In this document: one piece after another, positions 4,959 through 31,163 of the stretch
Numbering within the stretch: the first letter of the stretch is position 1
Layout: each line of letters opens with the position of its first letter
Source of the DNA: Pseudomonadales bacterium
GTDB lineage: Bacteria; Pseudomonadota; Gammaproteobacteria; Pseudomonadales; Azotimanducaceae
Assembly (NCBI GenBank): GCA_011525295.1
Contig: WTGV01000068.1
Span: 1 to 64,000 of the forward strand
Reading direction: 5' to 3'
Length of the DNA: 64,000 nt
The notes under the pieces: generated by a model
The model's database searches: none
What the model was told of the DNA's origin: nothing
Seen by the model: the letters and a program-made list of their open reading frames with translations, nothing else
Made by a program: the position numbers and the translations under genes

Positions 4959-5609
4959 TTAGTTACACGCGGGTAACGAAGAATCACTCGTCGTCAATCT
5001 CTGGTAGACTGCGGCCGTTTGGGATTTGGGCTGCAATTGGATAACCATCATGAGATCGTCAAACGTATCTACGTCGTAAGAAAACGACTCGATTTGGAGA
5101 GATTTAGGATTTAAACCCGCGAAGTGAGCATTTTGCTGGTGTTCGTGATAACTCCGACCATTGAAGACGTACTCAAACCCATTCGGTGGTGTGGCAATAA
5201 TGCCGTTTGTGCCTTTTAGACGCGCATCGGGAATGATGGTAACTTTCTCGTGTTGCGAAATGGCAAAATCAATGTCGTTGGGTGAAATTAGCGGTAAGTC
5301 TGCAGGCACAATAAAAGTTGTGGTACTCCTCAATTGCTTGGTCGCAAACCGTCCTGCTTGAGTGACAGCATCTTTCAAGCTAGTCGTCTGAGTTTCAAGG
5401 ATAATGACATTCTCTTTCAACGTAAATTCTGCTAAATTCGTCGATTCTGAGACTAGCAATATTCCTTGAACATTGTGTGATCGCAACAGTGCATCGACAA
5501 CATTCTCAAGCATCGTTGAAGCAAGCACGGTACGTTGTGCCGGGGTGAGTCTATTCGACAGACGACTCTTTCCGAAGGGTGGCTCTTTGTACGGCACTAT
5601 CGCCCACAT
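4959..5609 (-). CDS. cofC: CofC/FbiD-type guanylyltransferase of F420 synthesis
   Basis: This is a nucleotidyltransferase that activates a three-carbon acid phosphate (2-phospholactate, PEP or 3-phosphoglycerate, depending on lineage) with GTP for transfer to FO. The family start is clear: MWAIVPYKEPPFGKSRLS, with the GTP-binding basic residues. A PADLPLISPNDI segment gives the metal-binding Asp, followed by GTNGI and a later acidic YDVDTFDD segment. The ATG at 5609 fits the family best. A TTG at 5618 would overlap the cofD stop by four bases. Which acid it uses cannot be told from sequence alone. Confidence 0.9.
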   Translation of the reverse strand: MWAIVPYKEPPFGKSRLSNRLTPAQRTVLASTMLENVVDALLRSHNVQGILLVSESTNLAEFTLKENVIILETQTTSLKDAVTQAGRFATKQLRSTTTFIVPADLPLISPNDIDFAISQHEKVTIIPDARLKGTNGIIATPPNGFEYVFNGRSYHEHQQNAHFAGLNPKSLQIESFSYDVDTFDDLMMVIQLQPKSQTAAVYQRLTTSDSSLPACN

Positions 5610-5614
5610 CGTAC

Positions 5615-6547
5615 TCAATTCGCCAATGTGTTCCCAAATTCCAAGGTTTCTTGCGCCAGCCGAATGCGATCATCGAGCGTACGCATGACCGTATTCCGCG
5701 CGATACACTCAATTCCTAAGCTTCTGATGGTTACGCAATCCGCAGCGTCTCCTTCGTCAACGATCAATCCAGTCAGAAGCTCTTTATAGTGGCGCGCGAC
5801 GGTTTTGTTGTCCACGGTGTATCCAAGTTCGGTCATAATTTTTGTTGTGGGTCCCTTAAGAGCTCGACCTTGAACGATTGGTGATACGGCCAATACTGGG
5901 ACATTAGGACTCTGTAAGAACTTCCGAAATTCTGGGATTGCTAGGATGGGATCGACAGAAAGATAAGGATTTGAAGGACAAATAACAACCATTGAGATTG
6001 TAGCCAAATCTACGCTCAAATTTAGCCGCGCGTGCTCTGCGCCATCGTACTTTATCCCCCTGACCCGCGGGCGACATTGATGCTTCACAAAGTAATGTTG
6101 AAATGATAGTTCTCCAACTTCTGAATCGACGACTGTCGCTATCGGATCGTCACTGCAGGGTAGAACGGAGTGTTTAACGTCTAGAGCTTCTGCAATTTCT
6201 TTCGTCGCCTCGGTTAAGGAAGCACCACCATTCAGGAGTTGAGTCCGGTAGACGTGCAAGGCGAGATCTTTATCGCCGAGTTGAAACCATGCAGGACCAC
6301 CGAGATCGCTAAGAGTTTTAACGAATGACCAAGTCTCGTCTCGTCGTCCCCAACCGTTCTTAGGACAGGCAACTCCTGCTAACGAGTAAACTAGCGTGTC
6401 GAGATCGGGCGATATATGCAAACCTAGGTGACGAAAATCATCTCCTGTGTTAACTAAGAATACGAGCTGATTGGGCTTGAGTATATGTGCCAGCCCTACC
6501 GCTAACTTCGCTCCACCCACACCTCCTGTGACAGCAAGAACACTCAT
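5615..6547 (-). CDS. cofD: 2-phospho-L-lactate (or analogue) transferase CofD/FbiA
   Basis: CofD moves the phospho-acid moiety from the GDP-activated intermediate onto FO, giving F420-0 or dehydro-F420-0. The sequence opens with the family motif AVTGGVGGAKLAVGL and continues with NTGDDFRHLGLHISPDLD, the acidic metal site and substrate loop. The later CPSNPYLSVDPIL segment is also characteristic. The length of 310 residues is normal. Its ATG overlaps the cofE stop by four bases (ATGA), and its own stop abuts cofC, so translation is probably coupled. Confidence 0.94.
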   Translation of the reverse strand: MSVLAVTGGVGGAKLAVGLAHILKPNQLVFLVNTGDDFRHLGLHISPDLDTLVYSLAGVACPKNGWGRRDETWSFVKTLSDLGGPAWFQLGDKDLALHVYRTQLLNGGASLTEATKEIAEALDVKHSVLPCSDDPIATVVDSEVGELSFQHYFVKHQCRPRVRGIKYDGAEHARLNLSVDLATISMVVICPSNPYLSVDPILAIPEFRKFLQSPNVPVLAVSPIVQGRALKGPTTKIMTELGYTVDNKTVARHYKELLTGLIVDEGDAADCVTIRSLGIECIARNTVMRTLDDRIRLAQETLEFGNTLAN

Positions 6548-7302
6548 TGAAACAGATCTTCTTCTAGAGGTCTATTTCCTCGGTGAGCTCCGTCAAGGCC
6601 AACTGCAGGCGACAGCCCACGAACTACTGCCACAGGGATGCTTTCATCTGTCTCTCCCATGACTAACAAAGCTGCTGTTGCAATAGAATCCGCCCTGCTT
6701 GATACAGTTACTTTGAGTGTGCGCCCAAATAAGTCAGTATCTCCGCGGCGATCGTCGAGTACCGCGGTATTCGCTACTCCGATAGCGATACCTACGCTCC
6801 CCAATCTCCATGGGCGATTTACCGAGTCACTGATGATGACACCTATATTGGCATTCGTCCCATTGACAAGGGTCGCGCGGATTTCCTGAGCAGATTGATC
6901 GGGTGCTAACGGCAATAGTAGCGCTTGTTCTCCGTCGGCGTGGTCAACATTCGATTGGTCTATTCCAGAGTTTGCCGCAACGAAACCCAGTCGATGACGA
7001 GTGATAATAACCCCTTTTTTTTGGCGCACGATTCCGGTCGACTCTCTTAAGATCAATTCGACCAACCGCGGATCCTTATCTACTTCGATCGCTAGTTCTA
7101 GTGCTCGTGGAGACGGGGTCACTGAAGCCAGAGCAACCATGCGGTTTTCGGCTTTCGATACGATTTTCTGCGCGACCACGACGACATCGTGGTCTTCTAA
7201 AATCACGTTAGAGTGGTCCAGGACTTCGAGGAGCACCGAACCTAAATTCTCTCCGCCCTTGACTAAAGGAACCCCTCGGAGAGGCAAAATCTGCAAGTTC
7301 AC
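6544..7302 (-). CDS. cofE: Coenzyme F420-0:L-glutamate ligase
   Basis: CofE adds glutamate residues to F420-0 using GTP and metal. Family signatures visible here are LQILPLRGVPLVKGGENL at the N-terminus, the metal-binding NSGIDQSNVDHADGEQALLLP region, and SDSVNRPWRLGSVGIAIGVAN. The protein is 252 residues, the stand-alone CofE form. It lacks the C-terminal nitroreductase-like domain found in mycobacterial FbiB, so reduction of a PEP-derived dehydro-F420 would need another protein if that route is used. It starts with GTG, seven bases after the reductase gene. Confidence 0.93.
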   Translation of the reverse strand: MNLQILPLRGVPLVKGGENLGSVLLEVLDHSNVILEDHDVVVVAQKIVSKAENRMVALASVTPSPRALELAIEVDKDPRLVELILRESTGIVRQKKGVIITRHRLGFVAANSGIDQSNVDHADGEQALLLPLAPDQSAQEIRATLVNGTNANIGVIISDSVNRPWRLGSVGIAIGVANTAVLDDRRGDTDLFGRTLKVTVSSRADSIATAALLVMGETDESIPVAVVRGLSPAVGLDGAHRGNRPLEEDLFQ

Positions 7303-7308
7303 GTTCTA

Positions 7309-8004
7309 TTAGTCGTGCGAACCACCGACTATTTTGATTCCAGAGTGAGAAATCGGATACCTTTTGTTGATCTGGATCAGAATACTTGTTAGCGCTTCTG
7401 CAGCTGCTGCATTGTCAATCGGACCCGCGTGCCAGGCGTGCATACCTGCATCCTCGGCAAGTTGAATCACTCGTTCCCGAGCTACTTTCTTGTTGCCGCT
7501 CACCAACACGTCGCATTCTATATTGACATCTGTTTTCATTAAGTTTGCAGCAATATTTTGAAACGCACTCACTACCATGACATCGTCTCCCAATAATTCT
7601 TGTGCGCGCTTACCTGCGCTACCCTCAGTAGGGAGTTGGACCGTACCAACTTTAGGTGGCATCAACGGTACCGTCGCGTCAACAAGAATTTTCCCCTTCA
7701 GAACATCTTTCACGCTAGTTAATGTACTAATCTGATGCGCGGCGGGAACAGTAAGTACGACTATGTCTCCCGTCTCTGCGGCCGCGCGATTTTCCATTGC
7801 GACTACGGACAAGTTTGGAACCGACTTTAGAAGCTTCGCTACCGCGGTCTCTGCTTTTTCGCGGACTCGGGATCCGATTATGATCTTATGGCCAGATTTT
7901 CCCCATCGAAGAGCAAAACCGGTTCCTACGTCTCCAGTACCACCAAGAATCGCAATTGTTTCAGGATTATTGGTCGAAAAGAATTTTTTCATCAGTCTAC
8001 GCAC
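7309..8004 (-). CDS. npdG: NADPH-dependent F420 reductase-like oxidoreductase
   Basis: This is a Rossmann-fold protein with an N-terminal dinucleotide site IAILGGTGDVGTGFALRW and an NADP-type IGSRVREKAE segment. It matches the F420:NADP oxidoreductase (Fno/NpdG) family, which moves hydride between F420H2 and NADP. The VDATVPLMPP stretch and the ISHSGIKIVGG end are family-like. It is the first gene of the F420 operon, which fits a role in keeping the cofactor reduced. Its start is GTG 8004 with AGGA about eight bases upstream; ATG 7992 is an alternative. The name rests on family resemblance plus context. Confidence 0.85.
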   Translation of the reverse strand: MRRLMKKFFSTNNPETIAILGGTGDVGTGFALRWGKSGHKIIIGSRVREKAETAVAKLLKSVPNLSVVAMENRAAAETGDIVVLTVPAAHQISTLTSVKDVLKGKILVDATVPLMPPKVGTVQLPTEGSAGKRAQELLGDDVMVVSAFQNIAANLMKTDVNIECDVLVSGNKKVARERVIQLAEDAGMHAWHAGPIDNAAAAEALTSILIQINKRYPISHSGIKIVGGSHD

Positions 8005-8150: not shown

Positions 8151-9044
8151 CTAACGGGGAGCAGGATGCTCACGTATGTGAGAGACTATTTCCTGGAGAA
8201 TCTTTGGAATCAGCGGTTCTGGTAAGTCGTGTCCCAATTTTTCGATGATTCGTAGACGAGAATTCGGAATAGTTTCAGCAAGATCGACAGAACCAAATTT
8301 ATCTACCAGCGGGTCTTGATCACCGTGGATCATTAATGCTGGGACTCTAACTGTAGCGAGCATGGAACGTCGATCACCGTCACTCAGAATAGCGGCAAGC
8401 TGCCGGCGAACCCCATCTGGACGACTGGCGCGGTCATAGGCAATTTCTACAAATCGACCAATCCCAACCTCACAAGAGTCGAAATACTGCCCGCCAAAGA
8501 TTCTGTTTGCAGCACGTGCTGCTTCAATACTCTCTTCCCGAGTCGGAGACACCACTGTTGTACCAAGTGCTCCCACGACTTCAGGTGCCGGAGTGGGAAT
8601 CTCTGGGTTTCCAGTCGAACTCATGAGTAATGACAGACTAAACACGCGCTTGGTATGATTCAGCGCGACGTATTGAGCTATCATTCCACCCATCGACACA
8701 CCAACCAAGTGTGCACCTGATTGCCCGAGGTGATCGAGCAAATGAACTACATCCTCAGCCATGTCGGCAAGACGATATGGTGGATCGACAGCAGCGGGAT
8801 CCTTCATGGCTTCAATGAGTTGCATGATTTCGGGAGGTGTCTGTTCGTTACCGAACGAAAGTCCTGCATCCCGATTGTCCATCATTACCACTCGAAAGCC
8901 TTCTGATCGCAAACCCTCGATAAACGTTTCGGGCCAATGCACTATCTGACAACCAAGACCATGAATCAGTACAATAGGGGGGTCAGCGCGCGAACCCCTT
9001 TGTTCAAAGTAAATTGAACCTTGGGGAGTTTGGAACACTGGCAT
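8151..9044 (-). CDS. Alpha/beta-hydrolase fold protein
   Basis: The fold is clear from the oxyanion-side VLIHGLGCQIVHWP, the nucleophile elbow GVSMGGM (Ser), the late acidic residue in IHGDQDPLVD and the C-terminal catalytic His in EKLGHDLPEPL. The length, 297 residues, is typical of epoxide hydrolase, haloperoxidase and carboxylesterase relatives. It has no signal peptide, so it is probably cytoplasmic. It lies about 150 bases upstream of the F420 operon on the same strand and could share regulation, but nothing in the sequence ties its substrate to F420. Confidence 0.88.
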   Translation of the reverse strand: MPVFQTPQGSIYFEQRGSRADPPIVLIHGLGCQIVHWPETFIEGLRSEGFRVVMMDNRDAGLSFGNEQTPPEIMQLIEAMKDPAAVDPPYRLADMAEDVVHLLDHLGQSGAHLVGVSMGGMIAQYVALNHTKRVFSLSLLMSSTGNPEIPTPAPEVVGALGTTVVSPTREESIEAARAANRIFGGQYFDSCEVGIGRFVEIAYDRASRPDGVRRQLAAILSDGDRRSMLATVRVPALMIHGDQDPLVDKFGSVDLAETIPNSRLRIIEKLGHDLPEPLIPKILQEIVSHIREHPAPR

Positions 9045-9166
9045 AAAACTGTATTACGGAAATATTTCAGACACGGTTTATACGAATTGCGTGTCCTAAA
9101 TCGCGTAGTGCATGAAAGTTTCCGTTGGGTTGGAAGAGTTGACCACGGATATTCAGGAACATTATT

Positions 9167-9784
9167 ATGAAGATTAAGAAATTATTATTCGTTGTGGCTA
9201 CACTGTTGTTAACCGGTGCTGTGTTGGGCGAAGAAAATCAAGAAACTTGGGGCCCCGACGTTGGTTCAGACCTACCGGACCTAGCTGTCAAAGATACAGA
9301 GGGTAATGATCGTACCGTCGATGATCTTCGTGGCGAGAGTAAAGGACTATTAATCTTTTTTATTAAATCGTCGGATTGGTGAGGGAGTTGCCAAGAGCTA
9401 CTAGTTGAGTTGCAGGATAGAATTACAGAATTTGAAGAAGCAGATGTCGCTGTTACAGCAAGTACCTATGACGCTGTAGAACAGAATGCATCGTTTAAGA
9501 GTAGTGAAAAACTAACTTACCCGCTGTTATCAGATCAAGATGCAAAAACCGTGAAGAGCTTAGGGATTCTCGATGAGAGCTACGAAGAGGGTTCTTTTCA
9601 GTACGGCGTTTCACATCCTGGGGTGATATTGGTCGATACCGACGACAAAGTGGTACTAACTCGGGCAGAGCATAAATTCAATGATAGCGAATCCATGGAC
9701 GATTTAATCGAAGAAGTGAAAGAGCTTATAGCAGTGGTAGCGTCGGAAGAAGAAGCCGATGCGGACGAAACCAACGAAGACTAG
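9167..9784 (+). CDS. Exported redoxin, selenoprotein candidate (copy 1), Sec at TGA 9380-9382
   Basis: Read through TGA 9380-9382, this frame encodes 205 residues: a signal peptide (MKIKKLLFVVATLLLTGAVLG), then an AhpC/TSA-type thioredoxin fold with GSDLPDLAVKDTEGNDRTV, LLIFFIKSSDW-U72-GSC75, TYPLLSDQDAKTVKSLGI, HPGVILVDTDDKVV, and an acidic tail. The in-frame TGA falls at the first cysteine of the WCxxC active site in this family, directly after TGG Trp, and the same frame stays open for 402 bases. The next gene repeats this exactly. Many neighbouring genes use TGA as stop, so global reassignment is unlikely. ATG has AGGA upstream. Selenocysteine is inferred; selABC genes are not in the window. 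Confidence 0.85.
9383..9413 (+). promoter_or_regulatory. Candidate bacterial SECIS of copy 1
   Basis: GCUACU (9397-9402) and AGUUGC (9408-9413) can pair around the loop AGUUG with one internal U-U mismatch. The hairpin starts 14 bases after the TGA, and the loop has G at its second position. The loop and 3' arm are identical in the second copy, but the 5' arm mismatch weakens the case for this copy. Confidence 0.45.
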
Positions 9785-9806
9785 TCTATTCAGAGCATAA
9801 GTTCCT

Positions 9807-10427
9807 ATGAAGATAAAAAAATTTATGTTCGTCGTGGCACTGCTGTTGTTTGCCGGTGCCGTCCTCGGCGAAGAGTATCAAGAAACATGGGGTCCCGACA
9901 TTGGCTCAGACCTGCCGGACCTATCTGTCAAAGACACAGAGGGCAATGATCGATCGATTGACGATCTGCGCGGAGAGAGTAAGGGGCTATTAATCTTCTT
10001 TGTGCGCACCTCAAATTGGTGACCGTATTGCAAAGCGCAACTAGTTGAGTTGCAAGAAAGAGTTTCAGAATTTAACGACGCTGGCGTTGCTGTATCAGCA
10101 AGTACGTACGATTCAGTCGAGCAGAATGCCGAATTCAAAACTAGCGAAGAATTAACGTATCCGCTATTATCCGATCAAGACGCGAAAACAGTTAAAGCTC
10201 TTGGAATCCTCAACGAACGCTACGAGGAGGGTTCACGGGCATATGGGGTGCCTCATCCTGGAGTTATATTGATCGATACAGACGGCAAAGTGGTGCTAAA
10301 ACGTGCGGAAGAGAAATATAGCGATCGTCCGTCCATGGACGACTTACTAGAAGACGTGAAAGAGTTTGTAGCAGGAGACGATTCAGAAGACGATGCCGAT
10401 ACGGAAGAGGAAAACTCCGAGGACTAG
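9807..10427 (+). CDS. Exported redoxin, selenoprotein candidate (copy 2), Sec at TGA 10020-10022
   Basis: This is a tandem paralogue of the preceding gene, 206 residues with the TGA read through. Signal peptide MKIKKFMFVVALLLFAGAVLG is followed by the redoxin fold: GSDLPDLSVKDTEGNDRSI, LLIFFVRTSNW-U72-PYC75-KAQLVELQ, TYPLLSDQDAKTVKALGI and HPGVILIDTDGKVVL. Many cysteine-containing relatives carry WCPYCK here, so TGA replaces the catalytic Cys codon and leaves the resolving Cys. A perfect 6-bp SECIS-like hairpin follows. The ribosome binding site is weak, and the start lies 22 bases after the first copy's stop, so translation may be coupled. An acidic tail (DDSEDDADTEEENSED) ends both copies. 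The gene converges on its neighbour with one base between stops. Confidence 0.87.
10023..10053 (+). promoter_or_regulatory. Candidate bacterial SECIS of copy 2
   Basis: GCAACU (10037-10042) pairs perfectly with AGUUGC (10048-10053) around the five-base loop AGUUG. The stem begins 14 bases after TGA 10020-10022, and a G occupies the second loop position, in line with the known bacterial SECIS model of a short stem with an early loop G about 16-37 bases past UGA. An overlapping TTGCAA pair (10028-10033 with 10050-10055) could form a competing outer pairing. Confidence 0.62.
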
Positions 10428-10428
10428 T

Positions 10429-11175
10429 CTAATCGGAGCTTAAGCTCCCAGTCGGTTGCGGGTTTCCCCTTGGGCTTCCCCAACCAAGTACTGAAAGTGC
10501 TGGTGCGAGTGAGATCAGGTAACTCGAACGCCAAGCGATTGAGTTTTCTAGCGCTCTCGTATTTTCAAACAGATTCGGGACGACTACGAATAGCACTACA
10601 TCAATAGACAGCAAAACACATAAGACGAGATAAAGAACTGAAACCCAGTTCCGCGCACTTTGCTTTCTGATTCTCATCCAAGCAAGCCACTGTGCGATGA
10701 ACGTCAGCAGGAAAAACGTCGTCGTGCTGAAAGATCTGATCGTTCGACAGGCACCACATTCGATCCCCAGAACAGATATTTGAAGCATTAACGCCGCAGC
10801 TCCAAGGCAGCCTAGGATCGTTGGTGCGAAGTTCAAAAAATGTCCATTGGGTGCACAAATTTTGTTCCAACGAGCCATGTCTAACCAATACACGAACGCA
10901 AGGATCGCGACCGGGATCACAGTAAATTTAACGATATAGAAACTTAACCCAAATCGACCAGTCCGACTAATACTAGTGCATCCTTCAATATGTGGAATAC
11001 ACCAAGGTACGAATTCTCCCAGATATGAGAATATATACCCTGACGCAGAACCGAGCCAGTAAAGTAACAGGATCAGGATTGGGCCGAACTTGAACCAAGG
11101 ACGGAACGATTCGTGCTTCACCGCGTCACGCGACAGACCACTATCCATACTTATAGTCTGCGTTGTATCTTCCAT
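10429..11175 (-). CDS. Multi-pass membrane protein with four conserved-looking cysteines, possibly Frag1/DRAM-like
   Basis: The 248-residue product has about six hydrophobic helices and a hydrophilic N-terminus. A loop near residues 55-75 reads FVPWCIPHIEGCTSISRTGR; the SIS segment after the first helix recalls the Frag1/DRAM/Sfk1 family, but that is only a resemblance. A second cysteine pair lies in IECGACRT. The paired cysteines would suit a disulfide-bonded exported loop. It converges with the second redoxin gene, so it is not co-transcribed with it. The function is unknown. Confidence 0.7.
   Translation of the reverse strand: MEDTTQTISMDSGLSRDAVKHESFRPWFKFGPILILLLYWLGSASGYIFSYLGEFVPWCIPHIEGCTSISRTGRFGLSFYIVKFTVIPVAILAFVYWLDMARWNKICAPNGHFLNFAPTILGCLGAAALMLQISVLGIECGACRTIRSFSTTTFFLLTFIAQWLAWMRIRKQSARNWVSVLYLVLCVLLSIDVVLFVVVPNLFENTRALENSIAWRSSYLISLAPALSVLGWGSPRGNPQPTGSLSSD
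10435..10448. repeat. Perfect 14-base palindrome at convergent gene ends
   Basis: GGAGCTTAAGCTCC lies eight bases after the second redoxin stop and inside the last codons of the opposing gene. It could form a short 5-bp stem. There is no U tract on either strand, so terminator function is doubtful. A related but imperfect version (GAGCATAAGTTCC) follows the first redoxin stop, so it belongs to the duplicated unit. Confidence 0.4.
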
Positions 11176-28255: not shown

Positions 28256-28686
28256 TAATGTATCCCTGAAATCTCTTTAACACGCTGCATGTCGCTCAAG
28301 TTAAGAGTGATCGCGTTGCGTTTTTCTCGAATGCCCAACAAGAACCATGTTGCTAGCAGTAATAGGACAATGGGGGAACCCCACAAAGCCCAGGTGCCCG
28401 GGGTAAACCGGGGTTTAAACAGAATGAAGTCTCCGTATCGTTCTCGTAAATAATCTCGAATTTCTGGATCAGATTTGCCGTCGCGCATAAGTGAAAATAT
28501 GGTCCGTCGCAAGTCCTGAGCTATGGGCGCGTCTGAGCCCGCCAAGTTCGTGTTAACGCATTGGGGACACCGAAACTCTTCGATCAATCGCCCGAATCGC
28601 TTTTGCTCGGATTCATGCTCAAATTCAAAACCATCGATTGATTGTGTCATGGAGAAAGTAAAGCTTACTACGAAAATTAGTAGCAT
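28255..28686 (-). CDS. ccmH: Cytochrome c maturation protein CcmH
   Basis: CcmH is a membrane-anchored thiol oxidoreductase that keeps apocytochrome heme-binding cysteines reduced. The family motif is here as FRCPQC (Cys40, Cys43), followed by IAQDLRRTIFSLMRDGKSD, and YGDFILFKPRF before a C-terminal membrane helix. The 143-residue length is normal. The gene abuts ccmG and overlaps ccmI. Confidence 0.94.
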   Translation of the reverse strand: MLLIFVVSFTFSMTQSIDGFEFEHESEQKRFGRLIEEFRCPQCVNTNLAGSDAPIAQDLRRTIFSLMRDGKSDPEIRDYLRERYGDFILFKPRFTPGTWALWGSPIVLLLLATWFLLGIREKRNAITLNLSDMQRVKEISGIH

Positions 28687-29238
28687 TCAGTTCTGCGCTC
28701 CTTTTGTCTCTAGCCATGGTTGAAATTCTTCCATCCAAACTGTACGTGTCAATACACCCACTTGTTTGGCGCGAATAATTCCCTTTGGGTCGACTAAGAA
28801 GGTCTCAGGTGCGCCGTAAACTCCTAGGTCGATGCAGACATCCCCTTGTTCATCGACAACGACTTTCTCATACGGATTACCTCGTTCGTATAGCCATGTT
28901 TTCGCGTCTTCGGCGTTGTCGCGGTAATTGATTCCGATGATCGAAATTGTTTCTGATCTAGCCAAATCCAAGAGTAAATCGTGTTCCTCAATGCAAGCGG
29001 TACACCACGACGCCCAAACGTTAACTAAACGAAAGGTTCCGATGAGATCATCTCGTGTAATCCTTTTTTCATCTAGAAGCGTCATACTTGAAAACTCCGG
29101 AAACGGGTCGTTTAGTAGCGCCGAGGGATGCACGGTATGTTTCCCGATTCTAAAACCAATCCCAAGGAAAAAAACCAGAATTCCAAAGCCAATTAATGGC
29201 GTAAGAAGTAACAATCGCGTCTTTAAGCGTCGCTCCAT
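28687..29238 (-). CDS. ccmG: Thioredoxin-like CcmG/DsbE
   Basis: This is a periplasmic thiol-disulfide oxidoreductase tethered by one N-terminal helix. Its thioredoxin fold has active site WASWCTAC (Cys79, Cys82), and the cis-Pro region reads YGAPETFLVD. It reduces CcmH or apocytochrome during heme ligation. The ATG overlaps the ccmF stop by one base. The length of 183 residues is typical. Confidence 0.94.
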   Translation of the reverse strand: MERRLKTRLLLLTPLIGFGILVFFLGIGFRIGKHTVHPSALLNDPFPEFSSMTLLDEKRITRDDLIGTFRLVNVWASWCTACIEEHDLLLDLARSETISIIGINYRDNAEDAKTWLYERGNPYEKVVVDEQGDVCIDLGVYGAPETFLVDPKGIIRAKQVGVLTRTVWMEEFQPWLETKGAQN

Positions 29239-31163
29239 TACTCTGGGTACTTGGTCTCTAAATCTCTGTGCGACAACCTACGGTATCGTTTGTCGAGCAT
29301 CGCGATAAGAGCCGCTAAACCTGCGACCACCGCTCCAAACCATATCCATCGTTGAAATGGTTTGTCTTGAATTTCTACCCCCCAAGTGTCGTTTTCCATG
29401 GGGCCCGCGAAAGTTATGTATCGATCTTTGAAGATACCGGGTGCGATAGCTGCTTCGTAGGTGATGTGATCTCGAATTGGATATAACCGTCGTTCGGGGA
29501 ACAAGGACCGCTGATCACCAAAGTCAAATTGGGCTCGTTCACCGATGAAGTTTTGTGATTCAGTCATCTGGACGTTTACTAGTTCATACTGGGTTCCGCT
29601 CACTTCGATGGACTGACCGATTTTCAGCCGTGCGTCCTTAGACTCGGTATAGACACTCGTCACCGCTACTCCGATTACTGCGATTGCAAACCCAACATGT
29701 GCCACGGACATTCCAATAAATCCCAAGGTGAGTGCGTTTCGTTGTCGATAACAAGCGATTGCATGGGTGATTATGATCCAGATTGCTAGTGCTACCGCGC
29801 AAGATGCTCCAAGATGTACACCGTCTGCCAATATCCATGGTAGGAGCAGCGCAACCACTGCTGATCCACCCAAGAATATGAGCGCATTTACAACCAATTT
29901 CATTGGAGTATGTTTCCAACGCGAGATTGGAGCAATAGCTAGGGCGAATGAGAGCAACAACATGATTGGTACGAACATGGCATTGAAGTATGGCTCACCA
30001 ACGGACAGTCTATCATCTCCGCCAACGAACCATTCGTGTCCGAGGGGATACAACGTCCCTAACAGAATCGTGAAGAGGGCTACAACCAGTAACGCATTAT
30101 TGATCAATAACAAGAGCTCGCGGGACACGCCCCAATACTGAACTTGGGTGTTGAGTGTGTGCGCGCGAAATGCATAGAGCACAAGGGAACTGCCTGCAAC
30201 TAGAACGAAAATTGTCAGCAAAATCAGCCCCCGTTGGGGATCTACCGCAAACGCATGGACGCTGGACAACACGCCGCTACGGACAAGAAATGCCCCCATC
30301 AGTACCAAAGTGAACGTTAAGAGCGTGAGCAGAATGGTCCAGTTCTTAAATGCACCACGTTTCTCGGTAGCCGACAACGAATGAATGAGTGCAGTTCCAG
30401 CCAGCCAAGGCATAAACGATGCGTTTTCAACAGGATCCCAAAACCACCATCCCCCCCAACCAAGTTCGTAATAAGCCCACCAGCTACCTAGAACGATACC
30501 AATGGTCAGGAATAACCAGGCTACATTGACCCAAGGTCGCACCCAACGTGCCCAAGCAGAATCGATCTTTCCTGTAGCTAGTGCTGCGATTCCAAAAGCG
30601 AACGTTACGCCAAACCCAACGTAACCGATGTATAGCATCGGTGGATGAATGATTTGTCCAATGTCCTGAAGGACGGGATTTAAGTCCGCACCCTGTATTG
30701 GCACATTCGGCACCAAGCGCTCAAATGGATTACTCGAAAAGAGTAGGAACGCAAGGAACATAACGCTGAGAACTCCCAACGTCCCCAGTACGTACCCGTG
30801 TAATTTCAGCGGAATGTGCCGCGCGCGAGTTGCAACAAGCACGGTCCACACCGCTGTTACGAGAGTCCATAGTAAAAAAGAACCCTCGTGTGCGCCCCAG
30901 ACCCCTGCCACTTTGTAGTACCACGGCAGCGCTGTGTTGGAGTTGTTCGCGACGTAGAGTACCGAAAAGTCATCATCGAGAAACGCGAGAATTAGAAGTA
31001 AAAACGACAAGCCTAGTACTGCCACTTGTACTTTTGTGAGGCGGATGGACATATCCACCCATGAAGCTCGGTTCTGGGCCGCTCCAAAGAACCCAAAAAG
31101 CGCGATCCCGATCGCGCTCATCAATCCTAAAAATGCACTAAAGTGACCTAGTTCAGGGATCAA
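29238..31163 (-). CDS. ccmF: Heme lyase subunit CcmF
   Basis: CcmF is a large polytopic membrane protein, the core of the heme ligation complex. The tryptophan-rich heme-handling motif is clear: [20 protein letters not shown]. Conserved His residues flank it, with about 13-15 hydrophobic helices and a C-terminal periplasmic domain. The 641-residue length is normal. It overlaps the ccmE end by 11 bases. Confidence 0.96.

Follow-up and report, generated by a model that had tools for sequence, protein, structure and literature searches.

The window analysed here (64,000 nucleotides from contig WTGV01000068.1 of a Pseudomonadales bacterium) carries two neighbouring redoxin genes, each interrupted by an in-frame TGA (Table 1). 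In both frames the TGA is codon 72, directly after Trp71 and three residues ahead of Cys75, and the terminal stop is TAG. If TGA is read as selenocysteine (Sec, U), copy 1 has S-D-W-U-G-S-C around this codon and copy 2 has S-N-W-U-P-Y-C. Besides U72 each protein holds one Cys, C75, and the two proteins are 72% identical. The preliminary description of this DNA had placed the TGA at residue 72 after Trp within a U-x-x-C motif of AhpC/TSA-type proteins, which the coordinates and the Pfam match bear out. Past the TGA the frames stay open for 133 codons (copy 1) and 134 codons (copy 2), with the AhpC-TSA domain matched, as had likewise been proposed. The in-frame TGA pair is confirmed as a real feature of this sequence, at which plain ORF calling on the window truncates both genes.

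Table 1. Positions of the redoxin genes and associated features in the window.
Feature	Positions	Strand	Remarks
5' flank of copy 1	8986-9166	+	includes start of divergent hydrolase gene; putative promoter region; counterpart duplicated in L073
Copy 1 redoxin	9167-9784	+	205 aa with U72; W-U-G-S-C; AhpC/TSA fold; signal-peptide-like N-terminus (by eye)
Copy 1 TGA	9380-9382	+	read as Sec72
Copy 1 SECIS-like hairpin	9397-9413	+	loop AGUUG at 9403-9407; 20 nt past TGA; U-U mismatch
Intergenic gap	9785-9806	+	22 nt; operon-like spacing
Copy 2 redoxin	9807-10427	+	206 aa with U72; W-U-P-Y-C; AhpC/TSA fold; signal-peptide-like N-terminus (by eye)
Copy 2 TGA	10020-10022	+	read as Sec72
Copy 2 SECIS-like hairpin	10037-10053	+	loop AGUUG at 10043-10047; 20 nt past TGA; six Watson-Crick pairs

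Elsewhere in the window TGA is a regular stop, in agreement with the earlier claim: of the 43 largest non-overlapping ORFs (at least 200 aa), 15 terminate with it, and 13 of these 15 have a further in-frame stop within 26 codons. A genome-wide reassignment of TGA was rejected on account of these terminations. When at least 50 open codons are required ahead of an in-frame TGA and at least 60 behind it, 19 sites are listed in the window, including 9380 and 10020, and by eye these two are the only ones of the 19 that seem to interrupt a gene at a redox motif.

The neighbouring genes include no clear partner of the pair at the window locus. On one side lie F420 biosynthesis genes and an alpha/beta hydrolase, and on the other TRAP transporter genes and a 248-aa protein (10429-11175, reverse strand), which is membrane-like by eye and has no Pfam match at E 0.01. 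A likely cluster for F420 biosynthesis and use, with CofC, CofD, F420 ligase and an F420-dependent NADP oxidoreductase domain, occupies 4959-8004 of the reverse strand. At about 28260-29280, also in reverse, a CcmG/DsbE-like thioredoxin is followed by a CcmH-like frame, both recognised by eye. ARAGORN found no tRNA in the window, and promoter-like sites such as the one at 9139-9168 are about as frequent in shuffled sequence.

Codon 72 among relatives and the selenocysteine machinery

Homologues at E 1e-15 were found in 33 of the 293 genomes of the order (own genome included). A further contig search yielded 12 loci, of which six (L069-L074) are close relatives from MAGs designated Gammaproteobacteria or OMG group, the latter placed within Gammaproteobacteria; the weak matches L075-L080 were excluded from all counts. 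Column 72 was read in 43 homologous genes (the window and loci L040-L074), 30 of which have TGA ("Sec genes") and 13 TGC or TGT ("Cys genes"). L040 and L074, on contigs of equal length, are identical where compared and seem to be one gene, which reduces the 30 Sec genes to 29 distinct ones. Among the 36 matches listed for the order, the column was left unread in the second copies of G039 and G179 and in G077, G207 and G087. TGA thus aligns with the Cys of homologues (30 and 13 genes, respectively), as expected of a bacterial selenoprotein, and Cys, the residue predicted for this position in the preliminary description, is indeed the alternative. A 49-row tree, built from 29 Sec rows and 20 Cys rows (seven of these Cys rows from outside the order), requires five changes between Sec and Cys, at least four of them forced by starred branches. 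Beyond the order, 398 genomes of the phylum were searched at E 1e-20, and none of the seven that matched besides the own genome has an internal stop.

The tandem pair occurs in six genomes (the window and L069-L073), and TGA is kept in both copies in all six. Other arrangements were observed as well. At locus L067 (G280) two homologues lie close together in opposite orientation, with selA a few kb away on their contig; both have TGA at column 72 and both form long branches. Second homologues in G039 (C48) and G179 (C144) lie on contigs separate from the first and have one internal TGA each. A peroxiredoxin-like match from Terriglobia (L075:2797-3165) contains an in-frame stop in TSG*TT and is perhaps a Sec peroxiredoxin of the TxxU type.

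This recurrence bears on the objection that a premature stop has made pseudogenes of both genes or was introduced into them by sequencing error. Apart from the in-frame TGA nothing speaks for it, while other genomes carry the same TGA in another 28 homologous genes (L040 and L074 seemingly being one) and the codons downstream of it are under purifying selection (see below). Sequencing error, which had been named as a possible refutation, is excluded by the recurrence of TGA in other genomes; chance nonsense mutation had been considered unlikely and is excluded by a column that is TGA in 30 of 43 genes and Cys in the other 13. Local pseudogenes or errors were rejected on this ground, and we assign them a negligible probability.

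The own genome (2.53 Mb in 68 contigs, 94% complete) possesses the full set of genes for selenocysteine insertion, for which the preliminary description had recommended a search. A selA match (525.4 bits) adjoins the selB match (401.5 bits) on the same contig, tRNA-Sec (selC) scores 67.4 bits, above the Rfam cut-off, with anticodon tca, and selD (255 bits) matches the C-terminal part of a 757-aa ORF. By eye, the N-terminal part of this ORF is pyridine-nucleotide oxidoreductase-like, in which it is similar to the Ndh-SelD fusion that the available text of PMC2398784 records from many marine sequences (GOS); this fusion produces selenophosphate and does not belong to the redoxin pair.

Presence of selA follows the TGA form: the gene was found in all 17 genomes with the TGA form (own genome included) and in five of the 15 without stop (Fisher P 4.7e-5, in a test that treats the genomes as independent though they are related). 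The 15 include G077 and G087 on their open frame alone, with the codon unread, and leave out G207 (internal TAA, without selA), with which the fraction is 5/16; the genomes of L069-L074 are outside the comparison. Both results weigh against a translation of UGA as another amino acid, whether Trp through near-cognate read-through or Cys from a tRNA with UCA anticodon. The Cys of the homologues would agree with such a reading; the complete machinery, its association with the TGA form, a covarying hairpin that is found in TGA forms and absent from Cys forms, and the fact that the preceding residue already is Trp make it very improbable.

A SECIS-like hairpin and selection on the two copies

No Rfam match above the gathering scores was found in the window, and the hairpin downstream of the TGA was therefore tested on alignments. 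In the Sec genes it consists of a 6-bp stem and a 5-nt loop, 20 nt past the TGA. Across 26 distinct Sec rows 96.2% of the stem cells are paired (79.3% in shuffles) and 31 cells are changed on both sides (9.3 in shuffles); such two-sided changes affect four of the six pairs, against 2.6 in shuffles, where four were reached in 11 of 500 cases. Covariation is 0.541, compared with at most 0.159 when the partners are slid. The number of further pair types shows no excess (8 versus 8.0 in shuffles). In the same columns the 13 Cys rows are 73.1% paired, no better than their shuffles.

Since the motif QLVEL encoded here promotes pairing on its own, synonymous codons were redrawn with the protein held fixed. 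Under this procedure the Sec genes (n=30) have a mean of 5.70 Watson-Crick pairs of six where 3.43 are expected, and the Cys genes (n=13) 4.15 where 3.93 are expected. All six pairs are Watson-Crick in 21/30 Sec genes and 1/13 Cys genes, and loop positions 2-3 are G followed by G or U in 29/30 and 1/13, respectively. Folding energy does not separate the groups, since constrained energies of -7.5 kcal/mol or below are reached by 21 of the 30 Sec genes and also by 8 of the 13 Cys genes.

The bacterial SECIS (bSECIS) model, as outlined in the available text of PMC13188914, has an apical loop of 3-9 nt, an upper stem of 4-16 bp, a distance of 16-37 nt from the UGA, a G at loop position 1 or 2 that usually has G or U after it, and a minimum free energy of at most -7.5 kcal/mol. 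Judged from the alignments, the hairpin of the Sec genes is the bacterial SECIS pattern of that outline. Copy 2 has its shape (5-nt loop, 6-bp stem, 20 nt), and copy 1 has the same loop length (5 nt) and spacing (20 nt), with a stem that the U-U mismatch splits into 3+2 pairs; the loop-G rule holds for both. The energy limit of the same outline is missed clearly by window copy 1 and narrowly by window copy 2. The constrained fold of window copy 2 has -7.2 kcal/mol and those of its five orthologues -8.5 to -8.8, and the best unconstrained fold in window copy 2, likewise in L070, is a different hairpin. In copy 1 the hairpin has -1.3 kcal/mol as a 17-mer and -4.6 as best constrained fold, with -3.1 and -2.8 for the latter in the orthologues of L072 and L073.

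Purifying selection acts on both sides of the TGA. Between copy 1 and copy 2, a comparison that the preliminary description had suggested, dN/dS is 0.113 over the 71 codons before the TGA and 0.127 over the 133 codons after it, with dS of 1.1 and 1.7, respectively. For the codons after the TGA, window copy 2 gives dN/dS of 0.06-0.10 against its five orthologues and window copy 1 0.26-0.53 against its own, at low dS (0.06-0.56). The higher values in copy 1 are partly due to its oddly low downstream dS, of which recombination is a possible source. Against L069-L071, dS past the TGA is 0.06-0.19 in copy 1 (9383-9784) and 0.53-0.68 in copy 2.

These differences between the copies raise the alternative that copy 2 is a working selenoprotein, while copy 1 is recoded inefficiently or is being lost: the weak hairpin of copy 1 would let most ribosomes stop at the UGA, leaving it mainly as a leader of copy 2 or as a decaying duplicate. 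The U-U mismatch (between three pairs and two, in 6/6 genomes) and the weak stem fit this alternative, and so do the higher downstream dN/dS among copy 1 orthologues and the synonymous codon identity of the hairpin region, which relative to the rest of the gene is raised in copy 2 (P 0.024), without a significant rise in copy 1 (P 0.16). However, the open frame, Cys75 and the TGA of copy 1 are kept in all six genomes, downstream dN/dS is below 1 throughout, the other five pairs are Watson-Crick and the loop begins with AGUU in 6/6, and each copy 1 gene is better paired than redrawn synonymous codons would lead one to expect (P 0.020-0.043). We consider a failing copy 1 improbable.

Local recoding into probable selenoproteins, as first suggested from the window alone, is supported by the Sec machinery, the Cys column, dN/dS and the covarying SECIS-like hairpin. 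The last of these adds to what had been claimed and is weak in copy 1.

Protein family and probable activity

With C read at codon 72, both copies match Pfam AhpC-TSA well above the cut-off of 26 bits (copy 1: 79.6 bits, E 2.4e-22; copy 2: 97.7 bits, E 6.1e-28). An AlphaFold2 model of copy 2 (m3adae6d3254e) has a mean pLDDT of 76.7 and a pTM of 0.73, with low confidence at residues 1-24 and 194-206, and places U72-C75 where a long helix (73-91) begins. The nearest solved folds are the peroxiredoxins Bcp, PrxQ and AhpE, and ResA-type oxidoreductases are among the first ten. When the sequence is aligned with 5enu, U72 lies opposite the Thr of TPGC and C75 opposite its Cys, which, together with the fold, indicates a thioredoxin-like UxxC active site in a peroxiredoxin fold; the motifs UGSC and UPYC are those of a UxxC Prx-like oxidoreductase.

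Two other assignments were considered. Sec peroxiredoxins of the TxxU type belong to the same Pfam family (PF00578) and fold, but the Sec of the window proteins is at the Thr position and not at that of the peroxidatic Cys; Sec at the peroxidatic site was rejected, the motif being UxxC and U72 aligning with the Thr of 5enu. The profile of the SelL-related redox protein NF040769 matches weakly, and membership was rejected at 31.9 and 49.9 bits, under the curated cut-off of 120.

The locus almost certainly encodes two exported selenoproteins in tandem, both Prx-like oxidoreductases of the thiol:disulfide type with AhpC/TSA fold and UxxC motif, and selenium is very probably present at the active site of both proteins. 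SelA, SelD and tRNA-Sec, whose genes are present in the genome, would make Sec-tRNA, and SelB would deliver it to the UGA because of the proposed hairpin 20 nt downstream. The signal peptide, recognised by eye, would export the chain. Motif and fold suggest that Sec72 would attack a disulfide, a peroxide or another oxidised substrate, that Cys75, the only other redox residue, would resolve the intermediate as a selenenylsulfide, and that an extracytoplasmic thiol donor would re-reduce it.

The most likely role is extracytoplasmic thiol/disulfide or peroxide redox catalysis by way of a Sec72-Cys75 selenenylsulfide. Within it we favour thiol:disulfide exchange or reduction of a small oxidised substrate, and the main rival is a true peroxidase, i.e., an atypical peroxiredoxin in which Cys75 would be peroxidatic and Sec72 resolving, or the reverse. 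Such a selenoprotein would suit the Bcp, PrxQ and AhpE folds and the position of C75 on the Cys, and of U72 on the Thr, of TPGC in 5enu. The replacement of the Thr in the peroxiredoxin TxxC by Sec, which results in a thioredoxin-like W-U-x-x-C, and the ResA-type oxidoreductases among the fold matches point away from it, and we regard the peroxidase as possible, though rather unlikely.

Origin of the pair and relation to known selenoproteins

Loci L069-L073 have the same pair with both TGAs, and a single copy is present in the compared stretch of L074 and of the other loci from the genus, L040-L042. The copies are 321 bp apart in L073 and 22 bp in the window and L069-L072. In L073 the 181 bp ahead of each copy are 82% identical, which places the upstream region within the duplicated unit. 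The spacing suggests duplication with subsequent loss of DNA: the pair would have formed when the gene was copied locally together with about 180 bp ahead of it, and a later deletion would have left the 22-bp gap and a two-gene operon. Just past copy 2 of the window (10435-10448) lies an inverted repeat, GGAGC-TTAA-GCTCC. A similar inverted-repeat stretch follows copy 1 in L073, ahead of the second copy, and the duplicated unit may therefore include the repeat.

Prx-like UxxC selenoproteins were published by 2005 and again in 2008, according to the available text of PMC1088965 and PMC2398784, with the Sargasso Sea Prx-like protein and GOS Prx-like 1 as members, so that the kind is already known. 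As far as the accessible parts of PMC1088965, PMC2398784, PMC9312934 and PMC13188914 describe them, these Prx-like oxidoreductases (PF00578, UxxC/UxxU) share with the window pair the AhpC-TSA family, UxxC in place of TxxU, the alternation of Sec and Cys and a SECIS-like hairpin. The window pair differs from them, WP_010940744.1 and the GOS set being compared by description only, in that it is exported (by eye), in tandem and with Sec in both copies. UxxC redoxins in tandem with Sec in both members were not described in the literature searched, mostly non-subscription and in part available as extracts. The preliminary description had called the arrangement unusual, and for the tandem with two Sec codons this agrees with the searched literature; the proteins themselves are less new, given the UxxC forms in the available text of PMC1088965 and PMC2398784. 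What is new is a small twist, a conserved tandem of exported Sec members in which both copies keep the Sec codon, and the pair adds no new principle.

A plain ORF caller cuts the genes at the TGA and thereby misses two full-length exported redox enzymes. It is also conceivable, although doubtful, that the pair is a specialised extracytoplasmic selenoredox system, in which the copies would have split their roles after duplication (WUGSC versus WUPYC) and acquired differently tuned SECIS elements; the fixed U-U mismatch of copy 1, three pairs below the loop, would then match the position of the bulged U17 in E. coli fdhF. In that case the two genes would amount to a natural experiment on how a SECIS hairpin controls the amounts of two selenoproteins made from one transcript. 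A family that alternates between Sec and Cys and contains a duplicated Sec copy allows one to test the benefit of Sec outside the cytoplasm and the effect of small changes in a SECIS hairpin on its use.
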